Positions 7,698 to 23,548 of a DNA stretch of 38,583 nucleotides are shown in pieces; position 1 is the first letter of the stretch, and the number at the start of each line of letters is the position of its first letter. The position numbers and the translations under genes were made by a program. The notes under the pieces are model-generated. The model was not told where the DNA came from. It ran no database searches and saw nothing but the letters and a program-made list of their open reading frames with translations. The DNA is taken from positions 1 to 38,583 of IMG/VR virus record IMGVR_UViG_3300009412_002054. One strand, given 5' to 3'. The stretch is from a virus.

Positions 7698-7858
7698 TTT
7701 TTGATGCTTGTGATGAATACTCCGTCTTGGTCCCGAAATACATATCTGTCGTGATACTCCTCCCGGACGATGTGCCGCTTGCGGGCGGCGCGTATTGCGA
7801 TGGCCAACGCCACCAAACTGATGGACAGGGCCACCAGGGAAATAGTTAGTACTGTCAT
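7694..7858 (-). CDS. Very small single-helix membrane protein (54 aa)
   Basis: 54 residues. It opens with one hydrophobic helix (residues 2-24, 'TVLTISLVALSISLVALAIA') followed by a basic stretch (RAARKRH) and a polar tail. Both ends overlap neighbours by ATGA, which strongly supports a real gene despite its size. The topology (N-out, basic residues inside) resembles small holins/antiholins or membrane accessory proteins, but no family is recognised. It lies between the 112-residue protein and the exported fibre-like protein. Confidence 0.7.
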   Translation of the reverse strand: MTVLTISLVALSISLVALAIAIRAARKRHIVREEYHDRYVFRDQDGVFITSIKK

Positions 7859-8193
7859 AATTGTGAGCTTGAAGTGATAACTGTATCAGTATCCGGATCC
7901 ACTACCGGTGCATTCTTAATCCATCCAGTCACCCGGTACCCCGGGTACCAATCACCGACCCCGGAAAACTCATCGTATTGTTGCCAGGTCGCCTCATCCT
8001 TGTTTCCGGCCGCTTTAGTTACACGATACCCATTGAGCACGATGGGTTCTGTTGCCAAGAAATCCCGCACATCTTGCAAGTCTGTGTATTGGGGATCCGA
8101 CTGATCCTGTTTGCCCACCATCAGCTTGTCGGTGAGTAGCAGGGCCGATTTGACCCGCTTGGTCATGGTGCTCCAAAAACTTAATCCGGCCAT
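7855..8193 (-). CDS. Phage protein of unknown function (112 aa)
   Basis: 112 residues, soluble, no membrane segment. The N-terminus (residues 1-45) contains a Lys-rich helix followed by 'LLTDKLMVGKQDQSDPQYTDLQDVRDFL', the phrase commonly seen at the start of short fibre/stem-attachment proteins that define a trimerising connector; the rest is acidic and aromatic ('DWYPGYRVTGWIKN'). It follows the Dit-like gene by one base and overlaps the 54-residue gene. Probably a small baseplate or fibre-connector component; this is inference. Confidence 0.6.
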   Translation of the reverse strand: MAGLSFWSTMTKRVKSALLLTDKLMVGKQDQSDPQYTDLQDVRDFLATEPIVLNGYRVTKAAGNKDEATWQQYDEFSGVGDWYPGYRVTGWIKNAPVVDPDTDTVITSSSQL

Positions 8194-20214: not shown

Positions 20215-22896
20215 ATGGCAAAAAAGACCAATATATCTGGCCTGCAACCCGAGAAGAACCCTGCCGGGGAGCCTATGCAGATTATCCTGCAGAAGATCGA
20301 TGTGCGCAAACCCATGCGCACCGAACAGGATATTCCCAAATGGCGGCAGGCGCTACGTTCTGCCGAAGGAATCAACCCCAGGCGGCAATTGCTCTATTCT
20401 CTCTATGCCGATGTGGAGATCGATGGGCACGTGGAGAGTGTGGTAGGCAAGCGAAAGGATGCCGTCACAGGAGCGAACTGGCAGTTTGTAGACAAGGATG
20501 GGCAGGCGCTCGAGGAGATCAATGAACTTATTGACACTACTGGATTTGATGAATTGCTGCAGGAAATCGTCAATACGCGATTCTGGGGGTATTCCATCTT
20601 AGAGCCCAAATTTTGGAAAGGGGTGGATGATACCAATGAGATGAGTGCCGGACTTTTGCCACGGTACCACTACCGGGTGGAGAAGGGTATAATTTCCTAT
20701 GATGCAATCGGGGACGAAGGTATCAATATTCGGGAGGGCATCTACCTGAAAACGGTTATGGAAGTGGGCAATGTCGCAGATTTGGGCCTCTACCTCAAGG
20801 CAGCCCCATATCAAATTCTCAAGCGCGGCGGTGTGGGAGACTGGGCCGCATTTATCCAGGTCTTTGGAAGTCCCCTGGTGGACGCTGTATGGGACGGGGT
20901 GGATGAAAAAGCCAAGAAGGCACTGCAGGATGCCCTTACCGGTCTGGGTCCCGGCGGCAGTATTATACGTCCTGCAGGTACGGAGGTGGAACTCAAAGAG
21001 AATCGGGCTAAAGATACCGGGGATGCCCACGGGAATTTCATGGCTTTCCTCAATCGGGAAATTTCCAAAGCACTGCTCGGTACCACCGAGACTACCGAGT
21101 CCAGCACGTCCTCCGGATACGCACAAAGCAAGACGCATGCCGATGAGGATGACTCCAAGCACGAGAACGATATCACCTACGTGCGTAAGGTGCTCAATTC
21201 CCGTTTTATCCGAATTCTCCAGGCGCATGGTTTTGATACCAAGGGCGGCCGTTTCATTGTCCAAGGTGAGACCCAGGAGCTTACCAAAAAAGAGAGTTTC
21301 GACATCCATAAATCCCTACGTAATGACCTGAAGCTGCCCATCGATGATGACTTTTTCTATGAGACCTACGATGTCCCACGCCCGGATAACTACGATGCTC
21401 TAAAACAGGAGATGGTTGCCCAGCGGCCTCCGGACCCAAATGCCCCGGAGCCTCCCGATAAAAAAAAGAAGACGAAATCGAAAAATCGCAAGGAGGAAAA
21501 GGAGGTCGAAGTAGAACTATCCAGTGAGACACCTTCCGATAGTTTTTGGCGTAAAACCCGGGATTCCCTGGTAAACGGCCTGGTCAATTTTTTCGTGAAA
21601 GCCCCGGCGGTGACGACCGGGGCGATTCCCATGGCATGTACCGATCACCGCATCAATCTGACAGCTAAGCAGCAGATAGACCAAGCCGGACTGATCCGAC
21701 GTATTTTTGCCAGTAATGGTCAGGCTCAATTTGATGCAGAGCTTTTTTGGGACACCTCCCGGATCCTGATCAGCGGCTTCTACGCCGGATGGAAAAATCC
21801 CGAAACGCTCAACCTGGCCATTGATCCGAGTTTTGTCTATGGCGCAGAGGATCCCGCCCTGCTCACGGCCTTTGAGCAGAACCTGTTTCGGTTCTCTGCC
21901 GGGAAGACCCTGGCCCAGGTGCAGCGCCTCAATGAGATATTTAGGCAGTCCTCCAGTTTTGAAGAGTTCTACAACCAGGCGAGCCTGCAGATAGAGTCAT
22001 ACAACCGACACTGGCTTGAGAGCGAGTATACCACAGCGGTTCTTACGGGCCAGGCGTCCTCATTGTACAACCGCCTGAAAAAACAAACCGACGTCTTTCC
22101 TTATTGGCAATACCGCACGGCCGGGGACCACCTGGTTAGGCCCACCCATCAGCTGCTCGAAGGGCTGATCCTTCCGGCCAACGATTCCAGGTGGGACAAG
22201 ATCTTCCCCCCCAATGGTTGGAACTGCCGGTGTACTATTCGGCCACGGATGGCCAATGAGGTGGACACCTCCAAGTTCCGGGAGATGCGAAGGCGTGCCG
22301 ATGCCTACCTGGGATCCGTCCAGGGGCGCAAGGAGGCCGCTACCGGCTGGGGGGTCAACCGGGCCAAAGCCACCGAAGTGTTCACTGCCAACCAGCAATA
22401 CGTGCGTAAATTCAAAGGGAAGGCCTCAAAGCGCCTGAATGCGCTCGGATTCTCGGACTACGGATTGGATAGCTATGCCAAGGCCAAAAAAGCCGCCACA
22501 GAGCCTGCAGTTCGTTTTGACGGGGATGCCAGGTTTTTCTACCGGGACCTTCAGGAGCACCAGGGCAAAAAGGCGCTTTTCGATTACAATCGGCGGCCGC
22601 TGAGTATCCAGGCGAAGGACTTCCAACGACATACCCGGGATGATCGCAAGCGACGTGCACATCGCACGGAGTGGCTCATGGCCATGGAACAGGCTATGAA
22701 GGCGCCAGATGAAGTGTGGCTTCAAGGCAGTGCCATGGAGGATATCATCTACCTGAGGTATTTCCAGGATGCGACCATCGTGGTGCGGGGTAAGATCGGA
22801 CCATCGGGGATTCGCCTGGTGAGTTGGTTTGAACTGGCCGAGAAGAAGTCAACCATCAGCAAGATCCGGCGCGGGCTGTTGGTACATAAAAAATAA
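20215..22896 (+). CDS. Portal-MuF fusion with probable C-terminal nuclease
   Basis: 893 residues, against about 500 for a normal DUF935 (Mu gp29) portal. Residues 1-400: portal ('QALRSAEGINPRRQLLYSLYADVEIDGHVESVVGKRK', 'GTTETTESSTSSGYAQ'). Residues 404-442: charged linker rich in Lys and Glu. Residues about 578-682: MuF/SPP1 gp7-like minor head domain, ending in the characteristic 'NGWNCRCTIRPR'. Residues about 762-893: an added domain with 'DEVWLQGSAMEDIIYLRYFQDATIVVRGK', a 'VSWFELAE' turn and 'IRRGLLVHKK', a pattern like the PBECR (barnase/EndoU/colicin/RelE-like) nucleases found at MuF C-termini. The first two assignments are firm, the nuclease moderate. In other phages such tails are thought to enter the host with the DNA. 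Confidence 0.85.
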   Translation: MAKKTNISGLQPEKNPAGEPMQIILQKIDVRKPMRTEQDIPKWRQALRSAEGINPRRQLLYSLYADVEIDGHVESVVGKRKDAVTGANWQFVDKDGQALEEINELIDTTGFDELLQEIVNTRFWGYSILEPKFWKGVDDTNEMSAGLLPRYHYRVEKGIISYDAIGDEGINIREGIYLKTVMEVGNVADLGLYLKAAPYQILKRGGVGDWAAFIQVFGSPLVDAVWDGVDEKAKKALQDALTGLGPGGSIIRPAGTEVELKENRAKDTGDAHGNFMAFLNREISKALLGTTETTESSTSSGYAQSKTHADEDDSKHENDITYVRKVLNSRFIRILQAHGFDTKGGRFIVQGETQELTKKESFDIHKSLRNDLKLPIDDDFFYETYDVPRPDNYDALKQEMVAQRPPDPNAPEPPDKKKKTKSKNRKEEKEVEVELSSETPSDSFWRKTRDSLVNGLVNFFVKAPAVTTGAIPMACTDHRINLTAKQQIDQAGLIRRIFASNGQAQFDAELFWDTSRILISGFYAGWKNPETLNLAIDPSFVYGAEDPALLTAFEQNLFRFSAGKTLAQVQRLNEIFRQSSSFEEFYNQASLQIESYNRHWLESEYTTAVLTGQASSLYNRLKKQTDVFPYWQYRTAGDHLVRPTHQLLEGLILPANDSRWDKIFPPNGWNCRCTIRPRMANEVDTSKFREMRRRADAYLGSVQGRKEAATGWGVNRAKATEVFTANQQYVRKFKGKASKRLNALGFSDYGLDSYAKAKKAATEPAVRFDGDARFFYRDLQEHQGKKALFDYNRRPLSIQAKDFQRHTRDDRKRRAHRTEWLMAMEQAMKAPDEVWLQGSAMEDIIYLRYFQDATIVVRGKIGPSGIRLVSWFELAEKKSTISKIRRGLLVHKK

Positions 22897-23032
22897 GCCC
22901 CTGAGGCGACCCCTGGAGCTTATACGGATTGTTTTCGTCTCGCTGTCTTTATCAGCCGTCAGAGCCCCCATCATCCGCAAGGTGCTGGCTCCTTCTTAAC
23001 CGAGACTTTAGAGGTGTAAATGTAGTGATTAA

Positions 23033-23548
23033 ATGAGTGATATCCAACGTATAAATGCCTGGTTTGATGGATTTGACCGGGAATTCTCCCAGATCATTCC
23101 CACGGTTGTGGCTGAAACGGCCACGGAGTATTTCCAGGAGCGATTTGTCACCCAGGAGTGGGACGGGATCCCCTGGCCGTCACTCTCACCAGGATACGCA
23201 TCGCGCAAATCGCGGGGTCGAGGACGTATACTCACGGCCAGTGGCACCCTGCAGCGTTCCATCGCCCCAACTATTGTAACCCCAAACCGGGTTGTGATCT
23301 CAGCAGGGAACGCCCGAAGCCCATACGCTCGTGTTCACAACGAAGGCCTGAGGATCACAGGTGTGCGACAAGTGGGCGCATACACCAACAGCAATTTTAT
23401 GGGGCGAGGCAAGCCGGTGAAAATACCGGCCCACCAACGGAGCGTTGATTTTAAAATGCCGCAGCGCCAGTTTATCGGTACCAGTAAATTCTTAAACCAG
23501 GCCATACGCGATCGACTGATTGCGGCCTATAACGCACGACAACGATGA
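23033..23548 (+). CDS. Virion morphogenesis protein (Mu gpG-like, tail completion)
   Basis: 171 residues matching the phage virion-morphogenesis/tail-completion family: 'RFVTQEWDGIPWPSLSPGYASRKSRGRGRILTASGTLQRSI', 'NARSPYARVHNEGL', 'VKIPAHQRS' and 'MPQRQFIGTSKFLNQAIRDRL'. It acts at the head-tail interface. It is preceded by a 136-base gap, the only one in this compact rightward operon, in which no gene or clear signal is seen, and overlaps the next gene by ATGA. Confidence 0.85.
   Translation: MSDIQRINAWFDGFDREFSQIIPTVVAETATEYFQERFVTQEWDGIPWPSLSPGYASRKSRGRGRILTASGTLQRSIAPTIVTPNRVVISAGNARSPYARVHNEGLRITGVRQVGAYTNSNFMGRGKPVKIPAHQRSVDFKMPQRQFIGTSKFLNQAIRDRLIAAYNARQR

Follow-up and report, generated by a model that had tools for sequence, protein, structure and literature searches.

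A portal-MuF-PBECR2 fusion gene of a Mu-like phage and the convergent structured RNA encoded behind it, a putative antitoxin

The fusion gene and its C-terminal domain

The stretch of DNA analysed here (the window) spans 38,583 bases and corresponds to the virus record IMGVR_UViG_3300009412_002054 of IMG/VR. It carries genes of a temperate Mu-like phage, including those for a transposase and a transposition protein, for a regulator resembling repressors, for the large terminase and for a connector protein of the gpG type. Among them lies a single open reading frame (ORF) of 893 aa with no internal stops, in which a portal domain, a variable charged linker, a MuF domain and a C-terminal PBECR2 domain follow one another. 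The spacer between this ORF and the next late gene, which codes for the gpG-like protein of 171 aa, holds on the opposite strand a small structured RNA that has its own promoter box, and this RNA is proposed here to be the antitoxin of the PBECR2 domain (Table 1).

Table 1. Features of the fusion gene, the spacer RNA and the gene that follows, in window coordinates
Feature	Position	Strand	Basis
Portal-MuF-PBECR2 fusion gene, 893 aa	20215..22896	+	Open frame, 3 Pfam domains, one ORF likewise in 33 other loci
Portal_Mu domain, residues 61-386	20395..21372	+	PF06074, E 4.1e-63
Variable charged linker, residues 387-470	21373..21624	+	Alignment A2
Phage_Mu_F domain, residues 589-675	21979..22239	+	PF04233, E 7.2e-12
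PBECR2 domain (predicted nuclease), residues 779-892	22549..22890	+	PF18810, E 1.5e-11 (5e-13 alone); AlphaFold2 pLDDT 95.3
H806, putative catalytic histidine, N-terminal helix	22630..22632	+	Position predicted for PBECR in PMC5512222; conserved or lost with R817 and S870
R817, conserved arginine, same helix region as H806	22663..22665	+	C-terminal alignment
S870, putative catalytic Ser/Thr, late strand (S/T-W-F/Y)	22822..22824	+	PMC5512222 and alignment
Structured pseudoknotted RNA, proposed antitoxin/immunity RNA	22921..23009	-	Covariance model match, 73.5 bits (training sequence); covariation; P1 test on relatives
Helix P1, 5' strand GUCUCG	23001..23006	-	Alignment/pairing analysis
Helix P1, 3' strand CGAGAC	22937..22942	-	Alignment/pairing analysis
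Pseudoknot, 5' strand GCGGAU	22973..22978	-	Covariation
Pseudoknot, 3' strand AUCCGU	22924..22929	-	Covariation
Promoter -7-like box TACATTTA	23017..23024	-	One mismatch to TAnnTTTG
Next late gene, gpG-like connector/tail completion protein, far end of the slot	23033..23548	+	phrog_26, E 2e-19

Each of the three domains passes its own curated Pfam cut-off (for PBECR2, 45 bits in the full protein and 49.7 bits alone, the cut-off being 27.1), and among the Pfam toxin families the protein matches PBECR2 only. According to these matches the toxin domain sits C-terminal to the MuF domain, as it does in MuF polymorphic toxins. The initial annotation, made from the letters of this DNA, had described one frame joining a DUF935-type portal, MuF and a further C-terminal domain, and had called the latter a probable nuclease; the open ORF and its three domains bear out this description, the strings ‘NGWNCRC’ and ‘WFELAEKK...RRGLLVHKK’ occur in the protein as they were quoted, and the profile search assigned the C-terminus to PBECR2 with the predicted active-site residues retained.

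The putative active site was compared in an alignment of 32 non-redundant C-termini. Most of them retain the His, Arg and Ser/Thr corresponding to H806, R817 and S870, while all or nearly all of these residues are gone in loci L006, L007 (and near-copies), L011, L016, L038 and L113, L007 still having its Thr. The R.GL (RGLL) tail persists in these residue-less fusions and is, therefore, not a mark of catalysis. The AlphaFold2 model of the domain, with a predicted local distance difference test score (pLDDT) of 95.3 and a predicted template modelling score (pTM) of 0.90, consists of helices followed by strands. Judging from profile and alignment, the C-terminal domain is a nuclease domain of the PBECR group with intact predicted active-site residues, and a ribonuclease (RNase) role is predicted for it.

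Homologues were sought in viral contigs and prokaryote genomes with the full-length alignment A2. Portal, MuF and PBECR share one frame in 35 ORFs, 33 of them besides the window and its identical copy L002, and the named genomes with such a fusion all belong to Bacteroidota (Pedobacter, Mucilaginibacter, Flavobacteriaceae, Litoribacter, Tannerellaceae). Porphyromonas gingivalis phages have the same architecture, with 34% identity across 97-99% of the length, under the mere annotation ‘portal’. A check for the three-part architecture in other portals, as suggested initially, thus found it in one ORF at 33 loci, mostly of Bacteroidota; the accompanying view that it is unusual was not supported, as it is widespread in Bacteroidota Mu-like phages. 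Indeed, it was described in general terms in 2017 by Iyer et al. (PMC5512222), who give fusions to MuF and portal domains as the simplest PBECR architectures and predict RNase activity and injection for PBECR. Because PBECR-MuF-portal fusions were described there, the fusion itself is of a known type, and the new part is the RNA next door.

Within the linker, the motif FxxAP (F460, A463 and P464; window 21592-21606) is invariant in alignment A2 amid otherwise variable sequence between portal and MuF, and is a possible candidate for a maturation cleavage site.

A structured RNA in the slot after the toxin gene

Residue-bearing fusions have 105-254 bp between the toxin stop and the next late gene, for which the obvious start codon was chosen where the mechanical ORF began too early. 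In the six residue-less ones, which overlap or abut that gene, the interval is -4 to +4 nt. On a tree of the portal-MuF part, three state changes fall on well-supported branches, and residues and slot change jointly each time. Two cases from outside this set agree: Mu gp30, whose PBECR is predicted to be inactive, shares 4 nt with gene G and so has no slot, and in genome G284 a residue-less PBECR2 overlaps the following ORF. In L014 (8028-8701), as compared with L003 and L004, the portal parts are about 97% identical (by eye, in the alignment) and the MuF-PBECR2 end and the spacer have diverged, a pattern which, on the strength of that alignment, we read as a cassette swap moving toxin and RNA together.

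It had been stated initially that the 136 bases after the fusion hold no gene, and that no immunity gene adjoins it. The first statement is correct with regard to proteins, as no conserved peptide was found in the spacer on either strand and a small peptide immunity gene was rejected for lack of a conserved ORF; on the minus strand it has to be revised, and the second is not supported, since the spacer holds a conserved RNA gene whose occurrence goes with that of the active-site residues.

The -7 promoter box of Bacteroidota has the consensus TAnnTTTG. On the minus strand it is found in 20 of 21 residue-bearing fusions and in none of six residue-less ones, as opposed to 100 of 954 control junctions, i.e. 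those after other ORFs in the same loci. The box lies at the next-gene end of the spacer, and the RNA, which is single-copy, runs on the opposite strand toward the toxin gene. Its core, about 90 nt long, has P1 as its outer helix, a stem in which CCARCACCU...GAUGGGG is conserved, the hairpin P3, and a pseudoknot that joins the loop to the 3′ tail. The pseudoknot pairs differ between loci: GCGGAU/AUCCGU in the window, GCAGGU/ACCUGC in L003, ACGGGU/ACCCGU in L112 and GGGGAU/AUCCCC in L116, and, as judged by eye, AAUCCA/UGGAUU with swapped polarity in L015, which is outside the statistics. In the core alignment A5, which was hand-trimmed with the pseudoknot in view and is biased in its own statistics to that extent, paired cells make up 89.9% (14 sequences) versus 30-48% after the partners have been shifted by 1-3 columns, and the covariation score is 0.310 versus 0.192 for shuffles, none of 500 reaching it (14 sequences); the observed complementarity was matched by none of 20,000 partner shuffles for P1 and by none of 20,000 for the pseudoknot. 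Because of the trimming, P1 was checked again, on loci that a model lacking this helix had found. Alignment A3, made from whole spacers, combines different types of RNA and is of poor quality. A search of Rfam returned nothing at the gathering score in eight loci, and for the window only chance-level matches at E up to 10. An anticodon-loop mimic, which had been considered for this RNA, was dropped, as the P3 loop is not conserved. Overall, it is nearly certain that the spacer encodes a structured RNA.

The covariance model used for searching, R1, consists of the pseudoknot and P3, with P1 left out, and its E-values are rough. Applied to 99 sources (1.28 Mb), it marked 15 places at E < 1e-7, all of them minus-strand spacers of residue-bearing PBECR2 fusions, which speaks for specificity and not for sensitivity, because 14 are training sequences and the remaining one, L004, is a near-copy of L003; these sources gave no credible match at residue-less loci or at their remaining MuF loci. 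New RNAs were then sought in overlapping draws of 395, 395, 350 and 125 Bacteroidota genomes. Those at L202, L205 and L213 adjoin an intact residue-bearing PBECR2, that at L196 adjoins a frame-broken one, and those at L195, L206, L207 and L210 are orphans, in genomes with no PBECR2 match whatsoever, L195 having a gpG relic about 3 kb off. The match at L208 (E 7.6e-4) is doubtful, and that at L197 (E 0.005) is probably due to chance. G1150:C1 has four PBECR2 fusions (L209, L211, L212, L213) with an RNA at each, three of these RNAs being copies of training sequences. In the eight new RNAs the pseudoknot has 5 or 6 of its 6 positions paired, and P1 pairs in all eight (mean 6.50 with itself versus 3.83 across, 0 of 20,000 shuffles); as the pseudoknot is built into R1, P1 provides the sole independent test. 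At L206 and L214 the orphan RNA is located between phage-like and host genes, as if it were cargo at a prophage edge.

Many other C-terminal classes occur among Bacteroidota MuF genes without a fused portal, and a similar slot lies behind these genes. Among 97 non-redundant unfused MuF genes with an extension longer than 85 aa, 94 have a minus-strand promoter box within 300 nt, and it is absent in 6 of 10 short-ended ones. In the LPD3 and CdiA_C classes (the latter match being weak, below cut-off) and in classes with unnamed domains, the slot contains a short RNA-like stretch of about 50-75 nt, in several of them a long hairpin with class-specific conserved loops that leads into T-rich sequence at the stop codon of the toxin; the structure statistics given above cover the PBECR2 RNA only. 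The LPD3-class RNA (L063, L072, L077, L079, L087, L134) has an apical hairpin with changing stem pairs and a near-constant loop of 7-8 nt, UUGUAGU or UUGCAGU, which is reminiscent of the anticodon loop of transfer RNA. L167 has two tandem LPD3b-type RNA elements no more than 150 nt past the MuF stop, recalling type III antitoxin repeats. In the Gln_amidase class, whose expected target is a protein, the slot instead encodes on the minus strand a conserved protein, 77-99 aa long, behind a TAnnTTTG box (L027, which is hankyphage p00, at 7784-8083; L044-L048, L061, L064, L073). This protein is a candidate immunity protein, by analogy with a Bacteroides glutamine deaminase MuF toxin, for which Alexei et al. 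2024 (PMC11699363) placed the product of the adjacent small ORF, as a proposed immunity protein, at the active site in a model. By the same analogy, the slot may be regarded as an immunity slot.

The RNA as a possible antidote and its alternatives

The sequence comparisons argue that the minus-strand RNA is probably the antitoxin of the PBECR2 toxin, and on balance we favour the more comprehensive reading in which a temperate Mu-like phage carries a MuF polymorphic toxin made up of a PBECR2 RNase and a pseudoknotted RNA antidote of about 90 nt. The PBECR2 domain, a predicted metal-independent RNase, would ride on the portal-MuF protein of the virion, and the RNA, with a host-type promoter of its own, would be transcribed toward the toxin gene, which means that a lysogen would make it while the late genes are silent. 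It could bind and neutralise PBECR2 arising there from leaky late expression, and also PBECR2 brought in by a related incoming phage. The toxin domain would enter the next cell, probably once the portal linker has been cleaved, and in an infected cell devoid of the RNA it would cut RNA. The twelve toxin copies envisaged initially presuppose the usual twelve-subunit portal and no processing.

Several points weigh against an antidote role. The independent losses number only three, and three pairs are too few for a sign test to attain 0.05. Fisher values count related loci as though they were independent. Of the 21 residue-bearing fusions, it is the window itself that forms the lone exception with regard to the promoter, its box TACATTTA having one mismatch. 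R1 misses the spacer RNA of some PBECR2 fusions (the Pedobacter group, L015, L039, L169), and the same RNA is, therefore, not claimed for every PBECR2 fusion; these loci do have a spacer with the promoter box. A Foldseek comparison of the PBECR2 model with the PDB gave no significant structural match, the best being a contact-dependent growth inhibition (CDI) toxin at E 0.36. The orphan RNAs could reflect a job of the RNA's own, unrelated to the toxin. Finally, a domain tethered to the portal would be barred from cell entry unless the linker is cut.

As the RNA is convergent with the late operon and complementary in full to the intergenic part of the late transcript, it might be an antisense or transcription-interference element which silences the late toxin and gpG genes in the lysogen in a type I-like manner, with no binding to the toxin. 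Such an element, however, needs no conserved pseudoknot, yet the structure persists across phages as the sequence changes; moreover, the RNA core does not overlap the toxin coding region, and the orphan copies have no target in cis, all of which makes silencing of this kind an unlikely function. It would be comparably surprising if PBECR2 were an ordinary structural or nucleic-acid-binding, non-toxic end of the head protein, as has been proposed for Mu gp30. Some relatives do keep the domain and the RGLL tail after losing all putative catalytic residues, and Iyer et al. (PMC5512222) predict an inactive PBECR in gp30, but the window retains H806, R817 and S870, most relatives retain their counterparts, and where these are lost the slot is lost with them.

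The RNA sits in the packaging region beside the portal gene, and its presence with active toxins and absence with degenerate ones would also fit a factor for packaging, folding or delivery of the toxin-bearing portal, whether chaperone-like or resembling packaging RNA (pRNA). We nevertheless give this proposal little credence: the RNA's own promoter box opposes the strand of the late operon, orphan RNAs persist in toxin-free genomes, degenerate fusions still make a portal without the RNA, and the Gln_amidase class fills the same slot with a protein. An assembly artefact joining two genes across a missing stop, for which one could cite the separate portal and MuF genes of Mu and hankyphage, is effectively ruled out, because the same single ORF is present in 33 other loci from independent assemblies, isolate genomes among them.

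If the antidote role is correct, it would explain how a lysogen tolerates a head-borne RNase, the orphan RNAs would suggest protection against superinfection, and toxin and RNA would form a directly testable pair. Guarding polymorphic toxins is generally seen as the task of immunity proteins; should an RNA take on that task here, immunity searches confined to ORFs have missed a kind of antidote. The class-specific slot RNAs may also hint at the substrate of each toxin. A generalization, which we advance tentatively and at somewhat less than even confidence, is that Bacteroidota phages have class-wide RNA immunity, with several MuF and portal-MuF toxins, apparently mostly nucleases, each having a small convergent RNA antitoxin in a fixed slot, non-nuclease toxins having an immunity protein there instead, and orphan chromosomal RNAs guarding against the toxins of incoming phages.

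Comparison with known systems

Phage Mu has homologous portal and MuF modules in gp29 and gp30, the latter with a predicted inactive PBECR according to PMC5512222; in Mu, however, they are separate genes, and the gp30-G overlap leaves no slot. The PBECR fusions of Iyer et al. 2017 (PMC5512222) resemble that of the window in their overall architecture, in their putative active-site residues and in being predicted RNases, and the available part of that paper makes no mention of an RNA at the toxin side or of joint loss of active site and spacer. MuF polymorphic toxins (Jamet et al. 2017, PMC5576092; Bxa, Alexei et al. 2024, PMC11699363) likewise combine a head-borne MuF protein of a temperate phage with a variable C-terminal toxin and an adjacent immunity determinant, but here the fusion includes the portal too, and the determinant next to it is apparently an opposite-strand RNA and not a small ORF. 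A small ORF of less than 150 aa right after the toxin gene, present for 89.4% of MuF toxins and hence typical although not strictly defining (PMC5576092), does not occur in the window, which does have the context of such toxins, a temperate tailed phage with portal and terminase nearby. The literature searched, which did not extend to most subscription papers or to any preprints, yielded no previous account of an RNA acting as antitoxin to MuF toxins.

A further likeness is to the type III toxin-antitoxin systems. These systems (ToxIN, CptIN, TenpIN) consist of an RNase-type toxin and a small pseudoknotted RNA. Here, too, a small structured RNA is encoded beside a predicted RNase-type toxin, which it is proposed to inhibit. 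In contrast to type III, the toxin does not belong to the ToxN, CptN or TenpN families and is a virion protein, and the RNA is single-copy, downstream and convergent, with its own promoter, whereas type III RNAs are tandem repeats located upstream on the same strand. By analogy, the PBECR2-RNA pair most likely works in the manner of a type III toxin-antitoxin system while being no member of it.
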